A stretch of DNA of 42,407 bases. It comes from a virus. Of the stretch, positions 127 to 34,719 are shown piece by piece. A model generated the notes under the pieces. That model had not been told where the DNA came from and made no database searches. It worked only from the letters and a program-made list of their open reading frames with translations. The stretch lies in IMG/VR virus record IMGVR_UViG_3300036760_000386, positions 1 to 42,407 of that record; one strand, 5' to 3'. Position numbers and translations under genes: made by a program. The number at the start of each line of letters is the position of its first letter. Positions within the stretch are counted from its first letter, which is position 1.

Positions 127-411
127 CTTGAGGTCTGCTAGGTATTCCTTTGCGTCCTCTGGCTCTTCGTGTCTGGATATCGCACGTAACTCGTTACGGA
201 ATTTGAGTTTCGCCATCCCAACAGCGACTGCGAACTCTATGTATTCCTCCAATACCTCCTCCCACTTGGTCTCTTTGTCTGTGTACATGATGTGGTGCTT
301 TATTGTGCAGGAGGGACGATACATATATGCGTAGTCTTTGCAAGTATTACATATATTTTCTGGTTGAAAAATGGCGGTAGTTGTTACTTTACCGCCGCGA
401 TAAACTTTCAC
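97..411 (-). CDS. Hypothetical protein with CxxC motif
   Basis: This 104-residue gene has a GTG start directly after an in-frame TAA, so no longer form is possible. It overlaps the previous leftward gene by 28 bp. Near residue 21 it has a CNTC (CxxC) pair, followed by a charged, helical middle and a C-terminus encoded by the terminal tandem repeat. It is the last gene of the leftward operon, and a terminator for this direction sits across the repeat at about 42252-42286. I do not recognise the family. No in-frame TGA is needed. The weak ribosome-binding site leaves the exact start less certain than the frame. Confidence 0.6.
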   Translation of the reverse strand: MKVYRGGKVTTTAIFQPENICNTCKDYAYMYRPSCTIKHHIMYTDKETKWEEVLEEYIEFAVAVGMAKLKFRNELRAISRHEEPEDAKEYLADLKQLHCMITPS

Positions 412-581
412 TTACTAATCTTCAGAAGCTCGAATATACAAAGCCCTTCCTCGATGCTTTCGGAGTGAGAAACCTCAATCCAAATGCGGTTAAACCTATC
501 GAATGTTGTTTTGTTCTCGTAACTCCAGTTCACTACTTCGACCATCATGGCGAGCCATTGCTGATCCATAGATTGTGCCAT
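384..581 (-). CDS. Small early protein, paralogue family member A
   Basis: This 65-residue protein has one UGA-glycine near the C-terminus (KISKGKF); in the standard code it would stop there. The ATG at 581 is preceded by a good AGAAGGAG Shine-Dalgarno, which fixes the start inside the upstream gene with a 49-bp overlap. It aligns by eye with its neighbours: a Trp near the N-terminus (QQWLAMM), a second Trp (VVNW), then an IWIEVSHSESIEEG block matching LWVDVASCETVEEA in the next gene. The function is unknown. Tandem duplication of a small early phage protein is likely. Confidence 0.7.
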
Positions 582-748
582 AGTTTTTTCTCCTTCTCGA
601 TAATGGTTTTTGCTTCTTCTACAGTCTCACACGATGCAACATCGACCCATAGTTGAGCAGCCTTTGCATGCGGTATCTTGTGTGAAGCCGACCAGTGTAC
701 CATATCAAGCATGGTGGCGTACCATTCAGGCGATCGTTTCTTGTTCAT
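533..748 (-). CDS. Small early protein, paralogue family member B
   Basis: This 71-residue protein ends ...NGSPGWSK when UGA is read as glycine; in the standard code it would lack four residues. It shares the pattern W-x(4)-MLDMVHW, then SHKIP, then LWVDVASCETVEEA with three neighbouring proteins. It is the first gene after a promoter candidate at 778-805. The start ATG lacks a strong Shine-Dalgarno. The frame stays open further upstream, but that extension shows no family similarity. I do not recognise a function; small size and position suggest a host-modulating early protein. Confidence 0.65.
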
Positions 749-777
749 ATCGTGGATAGCGTTATTGTGCTTGTGAG

Positions 778-805
778 ATCATAGGGAGACGTAAACTTTT
801 TTCAA
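778..805 (-). promoter_or_regulatory. Leftward promoter for genes at 748-97
   Basis: On the minus strand TTGAAA (800-805) and TATGAT (778-783) are separated by 16 bp. The site lies just downstream of a leftward terminator and upstream of three overlapping genes, where a promoter would be needed. It is a sequence match only. Confidence 0.5.
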
Positions 806-880
806 GTATTTCTTTAATCTTTTGAGGTGAAGGGGAAAATCCCAAATCCTCAAAACATTGAAAGCAAATACATTACATCT

Positions 881-912
881 ACAAAAAAAGCGGGGTTTAT
901 ACGTCCCGCTTT
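881..912 (-). terminator. Rho-independent terminator, leftward
   Basis: An 8-bp perfect stem (AAAGCGGG 887-894 with CCCGCTTT 905-912, 10-nt loop) is followed on the minus strand by a run of T. It ends the transcript of the 1315-928 gene pair, 16 bp after the TAA at 928. Confidence 0.8.
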
Positions 913-927
913 AGCCATATTCTTCAA

Positions 928-1137
928 TTAAAATCTTCCATGATCGCACTCAAACTGTGCTTTGATCTGTTTCAATTCCACAGTCGCTTCTTCCGAAGTC
1001 TCGAGCTTCACGAGTCGATGCCAGTAATCGATAAACAACTTACTGGGTACTCGCTGTTTGTCCGACCATCTGATAAGATCGCCAGTAACAGCTTTCCATC
1101 CGGGGTCGATATTAACAATAGACATCTTGGTAGTCAT
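928..1137 (-). CDS. Small early protein, paralogue family member C
   Basis: This 69-residue protein starts at the ATG at 1137, behind a clear GGGAGGAG Shine-Dalgarno; a longer upstream reading in the same frame is less likely. It matches its neighbours: GWKAVTGDLIRW, QRVPSKLFIDYWHRLVKLETSEEA, then a charged helix. It overlaps the preceding gene by 26 bp, and a terminator follows its stop. It has no in-frame UGA. The function is unknown, and the relationship to the other three members is seen by eye only. Confidence 0.7.
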   Translation of the reverse strand: MTTKMSIVNIDPGWKAVTGDLIRWSDKQRVPSKLFIDYWHRLVKLETSEEATVELKQIKAQFECDHGRF

Positions 1138-1315
1138 ATTGTTGTATCTCCTCCCTGATAGCTTGTAGCTCTTCGATGTTGGTGAGGGCATATAACCGAA
1201 CCATGAAGTCGGTTCTGATGGTGGGTGGTATACGGAGCGTGTCCATATACGCCTGTAGTGCGTTCGCTTGTCTACGCACTGTTACGGGGAGATGGTGAAA
1301 GGTAGTCTGTGCCAT
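1112..1315 (-). CDS. Small early protein, paralogue family member D
   Basis: This 67-residue protein (RRQANALQAYMDTLRIPPTI, then MVRLYALTNIEELQAIREEI) is the most diverged of the four. It keeps the pattern of a helix, an R/K-x-P segment and a second helix with a conserved E-E-L/A. It sits at the head of a two-gene leftward unit that ends at the terminator near 881-912. No Shine-Dalgarno is visible before the ATG. A perfect 12-bp palindrome lies 24 bp upstream at 1339-1350 and could bind a regulator. The function is unknown. Confidence 0.6.
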   Translation of the reverse strand: MAQTTFHHLPVTVRRQANALQAYMDTLRIPPTIRTDFMVRLYALTNIEELQAIREEIQQYDYQDVYC

Positions 1316-1338
1316 AATGGGGGTGCTTTAGTGCATTG

Positions 1339-1350
1339 ATAAGTACTTAT
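1339..1350. promoter_or_regulatory. 12-bp palindrome, possible operator
   Basis: ATAAGTACTTAT is a perfect palindrome in the 38-bp gap upstream of the leftward gene at 1315. On the minus strand a TTGAAA lies upstream, so a promoter overlapped by an operator is possible. The AT-rich setting makes chance plausible. Confidence 0.25.
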
Positions 1351-1353
1351 TTA

Positions 1354-1752
1354 TTATTTATTTTCAAGATATAAAAGTAGATTCTCCAAATATCCTATCC
1401 TATCATTGCTTGAAGCTATTCTAATCAAATGATAGTCTGCTATACTCATCTCTATTTGAGGGATTGTCTCACTTTTCACATAATTCGTTGTAGAAAAATC
1501 ATTAGCACAAGGAAACACAAATTCATTAGCATAAGGAAACACAAAATCATTACCGACCAACGCTTCTCGGAATCATCTATTGAAAATTATATCATTGATA
1601 GGATATATCATACCATGATCTGTCGCATCAACAAAATCATCTACAACACATTCTTCTGCATCATCTCGAACCATATCTGTGCTAAGTTGGTATCAATTCT
1701 TTAGTGCTATCTCTATAGCCTTCTGGATTACTTCTTCTCTTTGCATGTGCAT
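1354..1752 (-). CDS. Hypothetical phage protein with 8-residue repeat
   Basis: This 132-residue protein is read through two UGA-glycines near the N-terminus; the standard code shows only the last 68 residues. It begins with an amphipathic helix (EEVIQKAIEIALKNGY), followed by FNRGFREALVGND, a pattern I know from small phage proteins of unknown role. A short tandem repeat follows (NDFVFPYA, NEFVFPCA, NDF), encoded by a near-perfect 24-bp direct repeat around 1505-1555. The start at 1752 has a weak GGAG upstream; a second ATG at 1746 is possible. It overlaps the upstream gene by 25 bp. Confidence 0.7.
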
Positions 1753-2057
1753 TCGTTTTTCAACTCCAAGAATTTCTTTACCTTCTTATTGGCAACCTCT
1801 TTCCTTGTCTCTATCAGATACTTTCTTGCATGTTCCCCAAAACGTTGTCGTCCTCTCTCTAGCATATCCTCATACGTCTCTGTTTTTTCGCTCTCGATAG
1901 TTTGCTCCCGAATCACTTTCCTTACCCTCATCCCTTTCTCGTTGAGCAGTCCAAGATCAGCCATAGACTCCATAATATCGTCTATCTCATAAATACCTAA
2001 TTGGAAGTGTCCGGCAAGTATCGTATCTGCAAGTACCATCTCTACTGTTTTTTCCAT
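1728..2057 (-). CDS. Hypothetical charged helical protein
   Basis: This 109-residue protein has no in-frame UGA. The N-terminal half (MVLADTILAGHFQLGIYEIDDIMESMADLG) could be a small helical, DNA-binding-like fold. The C-terminal half is very basic and acidic (RKYLIETRKEVANKKVKKF), ends in lysines and has a CTC pair. I do not recognise the family. It lies in the middle of the leftward operon and overlaps the next gene. The ATG follows an A-rich stretch rather than a Shine-Dalgarno, a start context common in this genome. Confidence 0.6.
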   Translation of the reverse strand: MEKTVEMVLADTILAGHFQLGIYEIDDIMESMADLGLLNEKGMRVRKVIREQTIESEKTETYEDMLERGRQRFGEHARKYLIETRKEVANKKVKKFLELKNECTCKEKK

Positions 2058-2066
2058 TTTTTTGTG

Positions 2067-2336
2067 TTATATACCTAAAAAATTGCACATGCTTTTCAGT
2101 CCTTTTATTCATTCTCTAAAGTCAATCTCCTCTGTTGGATAGTCGGGGGAATCGACATAGTATCATCTTCAAGTAGTACTTTTGCGAGGTATAAAACTTA
2201 TTTTATTCTTGTATCTCTCACGTGAGACAAAAAATTCTTTGCCGAGGATCATACGCTCTATTTTTTTAACGAACTTTTCCTGCTCATGCAGATGCTCATC
2301 AATCATGCTCTCTATTGTTGGTGGCATTACTTGCAT
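2067..2336 (-). CDS. Hypothetical protein, read through UGA
   Basis: This 89-residue gene is invisible in the standard code because three TGA codons break it. With glycine it reads continuously: a helical N-terminus (PPTIESMIDEHLHEQEKFVK), then FIPRKSTTGRGYYVDSP and REGIKGLKSMCNFLGI. A TAG just before the ATG fixes the start. A TTGACA-like promoter candidate is 60 bp upstream. It ends 9 bp before the next leftward gene. The function is unknown; the glycine-containing turns are what supports it as a real protein. Confidence 0.65.
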
Positions 2337-2371
2337 CTAGGGAATAAAACATCTATCACACGACAAGAATA

Positions 2372-2401
2372 TATGTAGTTCACACAAGGATTTTTTGTCA
2401 A
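2372..2401 (-). promoter_or_regulatory. Possible leftward promoter
   Basis: A perfect TTGACA (2396-2401) on the minus strand is followed after 18 bp by TACATA (2372-2377). It lies in the gap upstream of the gene starting at 2336. The -10 box is poor, so this is tentative. Confidence 0.35.
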
Positions 2402-2418
2402 AAATATTACTTCATTAC

Positions 2419-2628
2419 TTATCATACCATTATTAACATACTTGCATATTTATCTATCCGTTGCTTGCATCTCTCCATAGCTTCTTTCCTACTATCTTCA
2501 CTATCATCTCCCTCGAGAAATGCTGGGCTTTCTAGTATTGTATCTGGTAGCATCAAAAATATCGCTATATATCCTCTCATATCATGTGTGATATACCATC
2601 ACTTATATAATCAAGTATTTATTCACAT
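2419..2628 (-). CDS. Small hypothetical protein, UGA-rich
   Basis: This 69-residue gene is found only with UGA as glycine: its second codon is TGA (ATG TGA) and TGA is also the last codon before TAA. The reading is MGINTGLYKGWYITHD, a hydrophobic stretch (GYIAIFLMLPDTI) and a charged C-terminal helix. The length, the absence of other stops and the fit between its two leftward neighbours support it. I cannot assign a function, and the hydrophobic stretch is too short and mixed to call a membrane segment with confidence. Confidence 0.55.
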
Positions 2629-2661
2629 GTTATCTGGGTTATATAAAGTACATACGGGAGG

Positions 2662-3039
2662 CTAAATATAATTCTCTATCTGTTCCTTTAGTCTTTCTGT
2701 TTCTTTTATGACATCTTCTTTACTTCGATTAGTCATATTATCGCAATAATGTGCAGTATCAAATCACACTAACCATCCACCTATATCGTCTTCTATCAAT
2801 CATTCCCATTTTCAACTGCATGAGACTGAATTTCTGAATATCCTGCGACCTATCTTTATCATTTTTTCATCAACCATCTCTGCAAAAGTTAGCCCAGCGT
2901 GAACATCAACATAATCATCTATATTACTATATTCCATTCAATGGAATTGATGTCATTGAGGAATAAGAACATAACCATTACCTCGTCAATGATTAACCGC
3001 TCAATCTAATCGAGTAATTTTTACAACAAATGTTTTCAT
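2662..3039 (-). CDS. Conserved phage protein (GFDxAH type)
   Basis: This 125-residue gene needs seven UGA-glycines and is wholly missed in the standard code. Decoded, it matches a phage protein of unknown function that I recognise from its pattern: GYVLIPQGHQFHG, then YSNIDDYVDVHAGLTFAE, then GGWLVGFDTAHYCDN and a C-terminal helix of Glu and Lys. It is the first gene of the leftward operon and starts behind an A-rich leader. A 38-nt stretch encoding IGRRIFRNSVSC is almost identical to one in the first rightward gene (3847-3887). Confidence 0.85.
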
Positions 3040-3044
3040 TTTTT

Positions 3045-3110
3045 TATATACAAAAATAAAGGGGCTGGTCTTGCGTTCCTCACCCCTCTATAGTTTGCAA
3101 GACCATTTAA
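3045..3110 (-). promoter_or_regulatory. Possible pseudoknot leader of leftward operon
   Basis: On the minus strand an 8-bp stem (GGTCTTGC 3104-3097 with GCAAGACC 3074-3067) encloses AGGGG (3087-3083), which can pair with CCCCT just downstream (3064-3060). Together they make an H-type pseudoknot or two exclusive hairpins. A T-rich tract and the start codon of the gene at 3039 follow. This layout suits an attenuator or small riboswitch, but no family is recognised. Confidence 0.4.
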
Positions 3111-3298
3111 GAGAGATTGAAGTATATACCAAATTGGTGCGGTCGTTTCCGATCCCGTATTTGGTGCTTTCCGATACAGCATAAATATATAAATCCAAAA
3201 ATCAAGTGGAAATTCAGATTAAAGAAAAGCCACCTAGTCTACCTAGATGGCTTCCCGAGAGACACTAACGACCTTCAGTATAATTAAAAAATAATCTA
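3111..3298. other. Non-coding region with direct and inverted repeats
   Basis: No gene is seen. ACCAAAT and ATTTGGT can pair around 3129-3162. The string TTGGTGC followed by TTTCCGAT occurs twice. A hairpin AGCCA...TGGCT with internal CTAG arms spans about 3228-3252. It is followed by the 14-mer GAGAGACACTAACG (3257-3270), which recurs at 3359-3372. This could be operator DNA or the 5' half of a structured transcript. Confidence 0.4.
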
Positions 3299-3326
3299 TT
3301 GCAATAGCAAGATGAAAGGGTATATT
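3299..3326 (+). promoter_or_regulatory. Promoter of candidate small RNA
   Basis: TTGCAA (3299-3304), 16 bp, TATATT (3321-3326) matches the promoter module found elsewhere in this genome. No convincing protein start follows. Confidence 0.5.
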
Positions 3327-3332
3327 AGTGAT

Positions 3333-3519
3333 GAGTAAAATCTATCATTCGATAGAGGGAGAGACACTAACGGCATTTCTCCCACTTGAGAGGCACTATA
3401 ACTCAGGGCGACACCTACGGGTGGTGCGGGGTAAGTGAATAGACAATCAACGTATACCGATTGTTCTCTCCTAAAATGTTGTTATATGTAACAGACACAA
3501 AAGTGTCTCACTGTTTTTT
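3333..3519 (+). ncRNA. Candidate structured small RNA
   Basis: About 190 nt lie between a promoter match and an intrinsic terminator, with no ORF of note. Consecutive hairpins are visible: TCTATC/GATAGA near 3340, GGGAGA/TCTCCC near 3357-3384 (holding the 14-mer GAGAGACACTAACG), CTTGAG/CTCAGG near 3386-3407, CACC/GGTG near 3411-3422, CAATC/GATTG near 3445-3465. It ends in the terminator at 3490-3519. No Rfam family is recognised. It sits between the divergent operons, a usual place for regulatory RNA. Confidence 0.45.
3490..3519 (+). terminator. Intrinsic terminator
   Basis: AACAG (3490-3494) pairs with CTGTT (3511-3515), and inside it ACAC pairs with GTGT around an AAAA loop; a T run follows directly. 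Confidence 0.6.
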
Positions 3520-3759
3520 CTGTACTTATATTTTTTTACAAAAAAATCACTACATATAATAACAACCTTTAGGAGTAGGATATAATCTAGGGGCTCCTCC
3601 TTGGGTGATGTTGGGTGTGTTCCTTGTTTTGAATAAAACAAGGTGTAGAAACATAAGATATATCTTATAGGATATATGGGAAGTTAGTAAAGAAAATATT
3701 GAAAAACGGTAGGAGAAATCTACAGTATAGGTAAACCATATTTTACATATCTCCAATAT
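3520..3759. other. AT-rich non-coding gap
   Basis: No supported gene. It holds a perfect 9-bp hairpin (CCTTGTTTT 3622-3630 with AAAACAAGG 3635-3643), an AGGAG/CTCCT pair (3571-3598) around a TATAAT string, and A/T runs. A minus-strand ORF at 3550-3756 has low-complexity composition and was not accepted. The promoter of the rightward operon is probably here but no good -35/-10 pair was found. Confidence 0.35.
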
Positions 3760-4008
3760 ATGTCAAAAAAAAGACATACATATTATAGCAAGTTTTTTAG
3801 CACACAATTTCTGAGAATGCATACACTCTCCCGATTTACCGACAGAATAGGTCGCAGGATATACAGAGATTCAGTCTCGTGCAAATGTCAATCATGTACA
3901 GATGGTGAAGTGAATGGGATCGAGGTTATGGATGAACAGCACGCCTACTATCTGCATGCTCGATCTTGAGATGCTGATATAGATTATAGGGACAAGTTTT
4001 TATCCTAG
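3760..4008 (+). CDS. Small phage protein with Cys pair and DEQHAYYL motif
   Basis: This 82-residue protein is extended past one UGA-glycine (HARSGDADIDYRDK). It contains IGRRIYRDSVSCKCQSC, then a hydrophilic loop, then DEQHAYYLH and a final YRDK. The C-x-C-x2-C group suggests metal binding. I recall the general layout from uncharacterised phage proteins but cannot name it. It is the first gene of the rightward early operon. The stretch encoding IGRRIYRDSVSC is nearly identical in DNA to part of the divergent gene at 2662-3039. Confidence 0.7.
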
Positions 4009-8390: not shown

Positions 8391-8828
8391 ATGGAAACAA
8401 CAGAACTGGTGGAACAACAGCGACCTCTTATCTGCAAGGTGCAGATGGAGATGGGAGAGAAGAACGAAGAATTACTACTTGCGGAGCATCAACTCACGAA
8501 GACACCCGAGTATCAGAGAGTGCAGGAGCTTCGCACGGTCCTCCAAGGGTACCAAGCACAGGAGCAGATGATGAAGGACGGGATCAGGCAGTCCCTCATA
8601 GCTGGAGGGATCAAAAGTGTGGATACTCTCACACACAAATTCACGATCAAGGACAATCCGCCTGCGGTAGTGATCCAAGATGAGGAGGTGATCCCAGCCG
8701 AATACAAGAAGGAGAAGATCACCATCACCATCGACAAGACGGCGATAAAAAACGACATCAAGGCAGGCAATAGTGTACTGGGAGCGTATCTCTCGCAGAG
8801 CAAGTCTCTACTCATCACGCCGAAGTAA
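8391..8828 (+). CDS. Siphovirus Gp157-like protein
   Basis: This 145-residue protein has no in-frame UGA. A helical N-terminal half (coiled-coil-like, ELLLAEHQLTKTPEY) is followed by KFTIKDNPPAVVIQDEEVIP, AEYKKEKITITIDKTAIKND and GNSVLGAYLSQSKSLLITPK, the typical C-terminal half of Gp157. Gp157 family members occur in replication/recombination clusters of siphoviruses and have been linked to resistance and DNA metabolism, with no fixed biochemical role. It is coupled by TAATG to the next gene. Confidence 0.85.
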   Translation: METTELVEQQRPLICKVQMEMGEKNEELLLAEHQLTKTPEYQRVQELRTVLQGYQAQEQMMKDGIRQSLIAGGIKSVDTLTHKFTIKDNPPAVVIQDEEVIPAEYKKEKITITIDKTAIKNDIKAGNSVLGAYLSQSKSLLITPK

Positions 8829-9530: not shown

Positions 9531-9558
9531 TTGCAATTGCACAAAAAATGATTATACT
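9531..9558 (+). promoter_or_regulatory. Promoter of the large structured RNA
   Basis: TTGCAA (9531-9536), 16 bp, TATACT (9553-9558), the best match of the module in the window. The surrounding 50 bp nearly duplicates 7781-7836. Confidence 0.7.
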
Positions 9559-9975
9559 GTAGCCGACATGAGGGATGGTTGATCACCTGCCTAGCAGGGT
9601 TAACGGACTATGCCTCATTAGGATCAGCTCCCTGCACGAGTATAACTGACAGCGTAGATGGCATTATGTCTCTGCATACGACAAAGTAGACTCTGGCACG
9701 TGGAGTACGTGCCTCAACCACACAGGGTGTAGCTACCTGCTGATGATCTATTGTGTGGTGTAGTCAATTAGATGCGAATAAGCCAACCACCCACGGTGAT
9801 CCAACGTACCTCTACGTCATGAGGTGGATCCCGGGGACGGGTGTCCGATAGGCAATGGACACTCGTCCCCGAGATACGAACCCCAGCGGCTGGGGTATAA
9901 AAATGAAACCCGTCTCCCTCCGTATGAGGGAGGGTGAAAGCCTACCAGATCAGGCTTGACAAGAACGGAGAGACG
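9559..9975 (+). ncRNA. Large structured RNA, about 410 nt
   Basis: No ORF covers this GC-richer stretch, which follows a strong promoter. Clear stems are: ATGAGG 9568-9573/CCTCAT 9613-9618; CCTGC/GCAGG 9586-9598; GGCACGT 9695-9701/ACGTGCC 9707-9713; CCACACA 9718-9724/TGTGTGG 9752-9758; GATCC+ACCTC 9798-9812/GAGGT+GGATC 9821-9830; a 15-bp hairpin 9832-9846/9857-9871; ACCCCA/TGGGGT 9880-9896; CTCCCT/AGGGAG 9914-9932; AAGCCT/AGGCTT 9938-9957. The last part can pair 9911-9923 with 9965-9975, hiding GGAG and the GTG start of the next gene. No known class (tmRNA, RNase P, 6S, group I/II intron) fits. It could be a giant leader or an independent RNA. Confidence 0.75.
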
Positions 9976-10355
9976 TGCATTATTTAATTCACAATAACCC
10001 TATGCCTATGACACCAGACAAATTCTTAGCTGACAATCGAGAGTGTCTTCGCTCCTCATATGAGGATCACATAGTCAATGAGTGCGACTATCCGAGGATC
10101 GCAGCATCTGAATGCTATGATGGACGGTATGATTGGGTGATGGATGCATACAGAGATGCATACGGATCAGATCATCTCATATTCATTAATGACAGATGGG
10201 TGGATCTGGATACACCTATGGTGCAGGAGCTATGGAGAGACGAGATGTATCTCACGCCGTACATCAGGGAGCATACAGCTCTCTGGCATCAGATTGGACA
10301 CCGAGAATACGTCTCCATAAATAACAATATTTTTACCAATTATTTTTGAAAATAA
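9975..10355 (+). CDS. Hypothetical protein downstream of structured RNA
   Basis: This 126-residue protein begins at GTG 9975 with GGAG 4 nt upstream; internal ATGs at about 10002 and 10008 are alternatives. One UGA-glycine precedes the final Lys. It is acidic and aromatic, with CYDGRYDWVMDAYRDAYG and LIFINDRWVDLDTPMVQELW. I do not recognise a family. Its ribosome-binding site lies inside the 3' end of the large RNA and can be paired with 9911-9923, so its expression may be set by RNA folding. Its stop overlaps the next ATG (TAATG). Confidence 0.65.
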
Positions 10356-31548: not shown

Positions 31549-34500
31549 ATGCCAATAACGTGAGCTTTGGAGACAGTAAAACTCATAAATGCACGTCCTA
31601 ATGGGGTAAGGACAACAGACCAGGATCATACTGATAACTGGGTATATTTCACCGAAGGCAGAGTAAAATTCTTCGATGGTGATCTCAAAAAGGAGTTTAC
31701 GCTTACGTATGTTCTGGAGGTTTCCACTACGGTGAATGCTGTGATTGGGCAGACTATCACAGGCGGTACATCTACCCAAACAGCGGTTGTTGTAGGGATT
31801 TCGAACAATTATCTGTATGTGAATACGGTATCTGGGATATTCACGAATGGGGAGACTATCACACATACAGGATATAGTGCAACTTTGACAACACAGCTTG
31901 GGGTTGGTATATCTGGTGGGAAGGCGGCAATAAAGTGTACTAGAGCAACGACAAGCCAGTTCTCTGCGATCCCGAACAAGCCGTTACATGCTATGTTTGA
32001 GGCGTATATCTCTACAGACCCTACTTATCAGCTACAGCATGCAGTCAAGATTTTGGATATATCTGGTAACAAAAAAATATACATAGAGATACCGGAGAAT
32101 AATGTTGAGGACATGAGCTTGAACAGCGATACCAGCGGATTGAGTATTGGAGAGCTCAAAAGCACAACCTCATATCCTACACACACAAACTATGTGCCTT
32201 TGTGGACTGTAACGAGTGGAGCATGGGAGACAGCTACAGATGATAGAGAGCATTATCTGATAGACGGGGAGTATGTTGATACATCTGTATTGGAGGCGGA
32301 GATCACGCAGCAGATACAGAACGGGGTGAATAATTATGTGGTATCAACAGGAGCGATAAATTACTATGAGGCTACCTACACACCACTCCCTGCTGCTGTG
32401 ACACAATCAGCAGTATACTATTTTAAGTCTCATCAGACTAACACGGGCACTTCTTTTTTTACGTTAAATACAGTAGGTTGACCGGTAACTGCAGAGGTCA
32501 AGAAATACCACGATCAGGGACTCCAAGCAGACGACATAGAGATAGATCAACAGATGGCAGTCAAATATGATGGCACATATTTCCAGCTAATCACTCCTAC
32601 TGCGAGTGCTAATTTGGCACAAACAGAGCAATCACTTATCACAGGTACAGTAGGCGAGGATGTGGAGACTGGCAAGATAGGTTTTGTATGATGAGGGGTG
32701 GTTGAGAAATCAAAACTACAGCAGACCACTGGTTGATATAACCTGATAGTGGGAGATGGTATAAATATAAGGATACAGCAGTGATTTATTGCACAATCTG
32801 ATAATATACTCAGGGCGGTAACTGTTCATGTGAAAACAAACGGAACCCCAGTAGATACACTACAAGCGAGGATATATGAGGCAGATCAGACAACACTTGT
32901 TGCTACGAGTGAGCAGAATATCCTTACTATCAGCGGCACTTACGTGGACTATGATTTCACGTTTGCTGATGTGGTGCTTACGGAGGGGACAAGATATAAT
33001 ATTGAGATTAGGAGAACAGGCTCCCAGAGTGGGACAAACTATTATATAGTGGAGAACTATATTGGGGAAGAGTTATGGGAGTTTTGAGATACTACTATTT
33101 TTGATGGTTCGGTATATAATTATACAGCTGGCTCTCTCTACTTTGTAATGCAGATGGCTAAAGACTATACTGTAGGTGAATGGTATCTTTCAGATAGCTA
33201 TTTTTCGGCTACTGGATTATGTGATGGGATATTCACAGAAACTAAAAATACAGGTGAAGATTGTCTGATTACGGTAGCAGGTGCGAACGGTAACCAGTTG
33301 GCGTTAACGCCATGATTAGAACTTTTTTTGAATACCGATATTGTGGGAGATAAGCAACTGGTGTATGATACAACAACATATTTCGGGTATGATGCTACAG
33401 ACCACGAAAAGATCGCACAAAAGTTTAAGATAAATAGATCAGTCCAGATGAGTAATATTCTGCTTAGGGTGCAGAGGAATGGATCACCATCAGATAATAT
33501 GCTTGTAAGGATAGAGACGGATAATAATGACGAGCCATCAGGGATATTGGTTGATCCAAACGCAGAGGCTACTGTTGTATGATCTAGTTTATCGAACAGC
33601 TTTATTCGTCCACTTTCATTCCCTTTTGCTGGTTTTTTCTCGCTCTCACAAGAAACAGACTATTGGATAGTACTTACAAGAGATGGGGCGGTGAGTACCA
33701 CTAATTACTATTCACTATCAATAAGAGATTGAGCAGACGATTATCCATATGGTCGTCTCGTGAAACTCAATAGTTGATCCCGGTCTAATCTCAGTAAAGA
33801 CATATTCTTTGATCTTCTTTTGCAGTATGACGGGAAAGAGGAGCTTGATCCAAGGAACCAGGAAACCCCTTTCGGGGGAACCACAGCACAGGAGAAACAA
33901 TCTCAGTCGTTCATCATAGATCAAGACCAAGATATAGCACATATCATGCTATATCTTAAAAAGGAAGGGACACCGGTAGATAATGTGAATGTGAGGATAG
34001 AGACGGATGCGAGCGGGTTACCTTCAGGGACGTTGGTTGATCCAAATGCTATTGCTACATTTGTTGGTAGCGATCTAACAACGACCGAGAGGAGGACGTA
34101 TATGGATTTTATTGGTTCATTTTCTCTCACTAGGAATACTCGTTATTGGATAGTGGTAGAGAGAGATGGAGCTATCGATCTATCCAACTTCTATAGGGTG
34201 GGAGAAACGGATGCAGAGTTTTTTTATGGGAACAGAGCGAACTACAACACAAGCTGGAGTTTGTTGACTACGGGTCGTGCTTTTGTGTACCATTTCTATG
34301 ATATATACCATCCGGAGAGAGGGAATATCACCCAGTTCCCAGACACCTACACAGATATATTGACCACACAAACTCATTATGCGAAAGTAGGGACATCTAT
34401 ATCAGATACTCAGATAGTTATTGATAAAGTAGTGAGATTAAGGAACAGAGGACAAACTATCCAGACTGATGGTACGCAGTATTATTGTCCGAATGGTGGG

Positions 34501-34719
34501 TATGTGTATTGATATGTAACAGCTTCAGGTGCAAGTGCGATGTTGATGAAACTATATCTTGGTGATACGCCAAGCACAAGTATTGTGTATGCGAATACGA
34601 ACGATGCTAGTTGAGATTTGGGTATTTCATCCTATATCCCCAAATGAAAATACTTCAGCATCTCCATAACACACAACGGTTCGACGACTGCATCATACGC
34701 CACATTTTATATGTTGTAA
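31549..34719 (+). CDS. Large tail fibre with repeated beta modules
   Basis: This 1056-residue protein is continuous only with UGA as glycine (about 16 of them). The N-terminal 400 residues are fibre-like. Then three related beta-sandwich modules follow: around residue 420 (VKTNGTPVDTLQARIYEADQ), residue 630 (RVQRNGSPSDNMLVRIETDN) and residue 800 (LKKEGTPVDNVNVRIETDAS). The last two carry PSG-LVDPNA blocks. Such modules resemble jelly-roll or choice-of-anchor domains and may bind the host surface. It has its own promoter candidate. Confidence 0.8.

Follow-up and report, generated by a model that had tools for sequence, protein, structure and literature searches.

A 25-nt element, CTCCCTGCAnGAGTnTAACTGACAG, located at positions 9628 to 9652 (plus strand) of the window (the whole 42.4-kb stretch of phage DNA from an IMG/VR virus record that was analyzed here), is conserved in six copies on five phage contigs, with at most one mismatch. 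It had gone unmentioned in the initial annotation of this DNA. Five of the copies are identical outside two n positions, and the sixth carries a single change; this sole one-mismatch copy is the second of the two found in phage G354, and all unrelated sequence has at least four mismatches. The element is probably a signal that is read by the host's own machinery.

The copies outside the window are found at L265:4231-4255 (phage G095, minus strand), L266:569-593 (minus), L262:17602-17626 (G354, minus), L261:286-310 (G354, plus), and L263:5707-5731 (G355, plus). When the untranslated stretch that contains the element was used as the query against 353 host-class genomes, two contigs matched it at 26 of 28 nt, both at one and the same place, each with an E value of 7e-5 and in intergenic DNA; at up to three mismatches, these 353 genomes contain two exact phage copies of the element and no other. 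The two further phages with the element, G354 and G355, come from IMG/VR, where two relaxed pattern scans showed, beyond the known copies, only chance-looking sequences with at least four mismatches. A broader set of 380 genomes from the phylum has no copy at up to two mismatches, and no further members are found in the phage and plasmid collections searched; the window itself, scanned at up to three mismatches, has only the copy at 9628-9652. With the reversed motif as a control on the loci compared, the best match is no better than five mismatches. The sample consists of the six copies only, and several of the contigs are fragmentary. L262 is closely related to L266 (92% over 493 nt); apart from this pair, little beyond the 25 nt aligns among the copies.

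In the window, TGA encodes Gly (code 25). Its genes are open only under that reading, and the large terminase has TGA on three columns with Gly in every relative and TGG on the Trp columns. Because its genes use TGA as Gly, the window is assigned to a phage that infects Gracilibacteria or Absconditabacteria, hosts for which code-25 phages have already been described (PMC10746230). IMG/VR searches with the terminase and the proteins neighboring the stretch find distant relatives only. Upstream of the stretch, the window encodes an HNH nuclease (6390), NinG (6994), Gp157 (8391), and small genes up to 9502; downstream, it encodes an orphan open reading frame (ORF), YopX (10753), an endolysin (13053), and a methyltransferase (15295), followed by the terminase (16664) and then by portal, head, and tail genes. 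The gene at 8391-8825 is a Sipho_Gp157 gene, and a "Mu Gam-like" assignment for it was dropped. A 1,056-aa protein encoded in the tail region (31549-34716) has no PHROGs or Pfam match. Genes at 384-3957 point leftward and those from 4024 on point rightward, with the divide at about 3.9 kb; the GC skew flips its sign near 3 kb. The part near 3.9 to 4.0 kb, which has no copy of the 25-nt element, is likely a divergent control region.

All six copies are intergenic, lie in the sense orientation to the downstream genes, and follow a gene end or a tRNA-like sequence. In the window and in G355, NinG-type genes are followed by the element, then by YopX and later by the terminase, which places the element at the early/late boundary. 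G354 carries two divergent copies near the two ends of its record, heading opposite gene blocks: the plus-strand copy at L261:286 stands at the head of a rightward block of tail and structural genes, and the minus-strand copy at L262:17602 heads a leftward block with NinB, a methyltransferase, and an endolysin. In G095, the element is immediately followed by a 244-aa ORF without a PHROGs match (L265:3282-4016, minus strand). In the window, in L265, and at the second copy of G354, a promoter-like site precedes the element by about 55 to 90 nt; of the five copies whose upstream 100 nt or so could be examined, just these three have one, and none is seen in G355 or L266. A comparison of the window, G354, and G355 shows no protein common to all three. 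A reader encoded by the phages is therefore unlikely, which favors reading by the host or an intrinsic activity; unrelated TGA = Gly phages would keep this 25-nt cis-acting signal because the host machinery reads it.

The 25 nt could instead represent recently spread passive DNA or a hitchhiker on a mobile segment, with the folding seen in the window being that of a GC-rich 5' untranslated region. Just 25 nt are shared, and transfer between such phages does happen, as seen in the 493 nt shared by L262 and L266. However, a passive piece would be expected to have random ends and changes, whereas the element is identical in four unrelated contexts, with changes only at the two positions plus one, and it keeps a constant orientation and the same kind of place. 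Such an origin appears quite improbable.

Several familiar signals were considered and rejected. A CRISPR repeat or a host-derived attachment site has no near copy in the host class. A likeness to 5S rRNA, noticed by eye, was ruled out against host 5S sequences, and a partial likeness to 23S rRNA amounts to a 9-mer judged to be due to chance. Complementarity to the host 16S rRNA is at most 8 nt and is not conserved. The element is not a plain boxA, since the host rRNA leaders have boxA GTTCTTTAAAA, which is absent from it; this boxA is clear in the rRNA leaders of code-25 hosts (L283-L287), where it is found both ahead of 16S and in the 16S-23S spacer. Were the element a T7-type promoter on the reverse strand, its transcript would run antisense to every one of the genes that follow, and promoter "hits" in host genomes are A-rich chance matches. 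As for a protein-coding element, the variable positions fall at second codon positions.

A DNA site, either a late promoter or activator site or a site of replication, recombination, or packaging, is the main rival reading, only slightly less favored than the RNA-based one described below. It would agree with the sharp 25-bp borders of the element, its near-absolute conservation, and the lack of covariation, which is seen neither at the two variable positions nor in the 3-bp CTC/GAG inverted repeat, as well as with flanks that lack conserved structure and, across the copies, any conserved sequence outside the 25 nt. In addition, GAGTATAACTG resembles a -10 box, with TATAAC found 6 nt before the element end. 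However, when the element is compared with a sigma-70 promoter (-35/-10, spacing of 16 to 18 nt), only the TATAAC-like -10 is found, and the flanks contain no -35 match at the proper distance. The uniform sense orientation to the downstream genes argues against a DNA site, as does the lack of a common phage protein as its possible reader; a packaging site is further disfavored by the presence of two copies in G354 and by a location kilobases away from the terminase genes.

With respect to action as RNA, most copies have sequence immediately following the element that could pair into a stem, e.g., CGTTGT/ACAACG in L265 and CGTG/CACG in the second G354 copy. In the window, a possible short stem CGTA/TACG is located at 9653-9689 (plus strand), together with the sequence ACAAAGTAG, which is common to the window and L265. 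This stem is drawn by sequence and is not significant across the copies (combined Fisher p of 0.07 for five independent copies); the core is invariant. Excess folding downstream of the element is found in the window (z of -3.7) and in L174 (z of -5.1) and is not clear in the other copies.

Tentatively, the element is interpreted as a cis-acting signal of an operon leader that would be read by the host RNA polymerase and might work like the put elements of phage HK022. These are leader RNAs that act on the host RNA polymerase without phage proteins (PMC9378689). The two of them, putL and putR, are found one in each of two divergent early operons, putR about 270 nt after its start site; put RNA is about 70 nt long, forms two stem-loops, and has a proven activity that is exerted via the zinc-binding domain of the beta-prime subunit (PMC9378689). 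By analogy, the nascent RNA of the 25-nt element would bind the elongation complex of the host RNA polymerase, and the bound polymerase would read through the pauses and terminators of the long downstream operon without a phage protein. We infer all three steps of this model, namely, action as RNA, RNA polymerase as the partner, and antitermination as the effect. Similarly to put, the element is found in phage-operon leaders, in the sense orientation, and is strongly conserved; it apparently needs no shared phage protein and may be placed some distance after the promoter. The two copies in G354, which serve divergent units, resemble the putL/putR pair. In contrast to put, with its approximately 70 nt and two stem-loops, just 25 nt are conserved here, fold and activity are those of a candidate, and the hosts are different. 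We do not assign the element to the put family, because two conserved stem-loops were looked for and not found. Also counted against the put-like reading are the Fisher p of 0.07 for the stem, the conservation of only 25 nt, the small number of members, the presence of an upstream promoter-like site at just three of five copies, and the window sequence downstream of the element, where no intrinsic terminator is recognizable. The same observations would be accounted for by a site that acts as DNA.

The nut and qut elements of phage lambda are short conserved elements that head early and late operons, with qut at the late operon start, and they require the phage proteins N and Q. The 25-nt element is similar to nut and qut, and to the bacterial boxA, in being a short conserved element at the head of a phage gene block. 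However, no N- or Q-like protein is shared by the phages studied here, and the host boxA has a different sequence. The element might be the 25-nt core of a new class of leader RNA, present in phages with no gene common to all, that the RNA polymerase of CPR bacteria with TGA = Gly would read without an intermediary, allowing long operons to be transcribed without a phage antiterminator, a proposal that is conceivable and somewhat unlikely as it stands.

The surrounding stretch (9559-9902, plus strand) is GC rich (53%, versus 39.5% for the whole window), folds strongly, and has non-coding codon scores. In the best explanation, itself a tentative one, it would be the untranslated leader of the late gene block. 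The region 9559-9990 folds at -162 kcal/mol, compared with a shuffle mean of -134 kcal/mol, and beats 100 of 100 dinucleotide shuffles (z of -4.5); in nine helices, each 4 bp or longer, the pair probability exceeds 0.7. A large structured stretch, as described in the initial annotation, is thus confirmed for the window. Upstream of the element, it contains a stacked hairpin at 9568-9618 (9568-9573/9613-9618, 9575-9580/9606-9611, and 9586-9590/9594-9598, all with pair probabilities above 0.7), which the other phages lack, having coding or tRNA-like sequence at that place instead. Folding also predicts an 8-bp hairpin at 9695-9713, a 16-bp hairpin without a U tract at 9832-9871, and a 7-bp hairpin at 9880-9896, directly before ATG 9903 (all on the plus strand). 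The Rfam search that had been proposed, with GOLLD, ROOL, and OLE included, was run and shows no match of the stretch at the gathering level and only chance-level matches at a relaxed level. The same is true of the individual covariance models for ROOL, GOLLD, OLE, RNase P, tmRNA, 6S, SRP, and group I/II introns, and a tRNA/tmRNA search of the stretch finds none, in agreement with the earlier statement that it does not look like a tmRNA, RNase P, 6S, SRP, or group I/II intron RNA. Of the new class of phage RNA suggested there, what stands is an untranslated, structured stretch outside Rfam with a core common to phages of the same host group; the whole 410 nt as one conserved RNA does not, as only 25 nt are kept.

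ROOL and GOLLD are large structured phage RNAs that are often found near tRNA genes. The present case is similar in having a large structured stretch in a phage and copies near tRNA genes but differs in the absence of an Rfam match and in the limitation of conserved sequence to 25 nt. It is improbable that the element belongs, as a conserved core, to a distinct noncoding RNA of this kind that acts in trans, with its late-gene location being the usual site of phage tRNA and noncoding RNA genes. Although L265, G355, and G354 have tRNA or tRNA-like genes next to the element (in G354 by eye), and the stretch in the window is long and folds well, there is no recognizable terminator or common 3' end, conservation ends at 25 nt, and no excess folding follows four of the six copies. 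The tRNA-like genes beside the element in G355 (L263:5884-6014) and G354 (L261:460-630 and L262:17636-17687) have unusually long insertions or variable arms. The one in G355 is called by ARAGORN only with introns allowed; those in G354 are missed by both Rfam and ARAGORN, with a T-arm and acceptor visible by eye.

The stretch is preceded by a putative promoter, TTGCAA-16-TATACT (9531-9558, plus strand; 9 of 12 consensus matches), from which, judging by its sequence, transcription would begin near 9565. Previously described as the best promoter of the genome, this site is mediocre: it ranks about 165th among the 2,881 candidates in a consensus scan of the window and is outscored by a second promoter-like site, TTGACA-16-CATTAT (9956-9983, plus strand), which might serve ATG 10002 or 10008. 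The absence of an ORF, reported for about 410 nt, holds to about 9902; beyond that, the last 70 nt or so may be coding under code 25. In that code, the ORF that shares the frame of the next gene extends back uninterrupted to ATG 9855 or ATG 9903, and codon scores are non-coding to about 9860 and ambiguous from 9920. No relatives were found for this orphan ORF (9903-10355, plus strand), whose candidate starts are 9855, 9903, 9924, 9975, 10002, and 10008.

The second promoter-like site overlies a start-codon switch proposed in the initial annotation at 9911-9975 (plus strand), in which a hairpin (9914-9919/9927-9932) would alternate with a long-range helix (9911-9923/9965-9975) that hides GGAG and GTG 9975. 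Both pairings are present in the sequence, and the region folds strongly. However, the hairpin has a probability of about 0.73 and the long-range helix one of 0.001 to 0.06, and forcing the latter costs 5.6 kcal/mol (about 5 to 6 kcal/mol above the minimum). The two folds, said to exclude each other, do not strictly do so: partial long-range pairing (9911-9914/9972-9975) and partial hairpin pairing (9915-9919/9927-9931) can coexist, at a similar energy cost. A translational riboswitch has two comparable, mutually exclusive folds, one of them hiding the ribosome-binding site, and such a pair is not found here. Under code 25 this part may encode protein, GTG 9975 sits between the hexamers of TTGACA-16-CATTAT, and the 9911-9975 part is absent from every homologue. 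Shine-Dalgarno sites are also rare in this phage. The Shine-Dalgarno logic of the switch is weak, because SD-like sequence is found at few of the gene starts listed and 16S in the hosts has the 3' end TATCTCCTTA or CACCACCCTAA. One group of the hosts (L281-L291) has TATCTCCTTA and another has CACCACCCTAA or CACTTCCCTAA, and their anti-Shine-Dalgarno looks altered or lost. Control by a riboswitch-like leader, with 3' helices that either cover or expose GGAG and GTG 9975, is thus very improbable.

That phages without a common protein keep a 25-nt signal nearly invariant suggests that the host imposes a strong constraint. Most Gracilibacteria and Absconditabacteria have not been cultured, and the signal offers a rare handle on the control of their RNA polymerase or another core machine. 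In the form of the pattern CTCCCTGCANGAGNNTAACTGACAG, it provides a search string to recognize phages of these hosts. Should the element prove to be an RNA antiterminator, factor-independent RNA antitermination, best known from HK022, would be extended to a deep-branching group with an altered genetic code.
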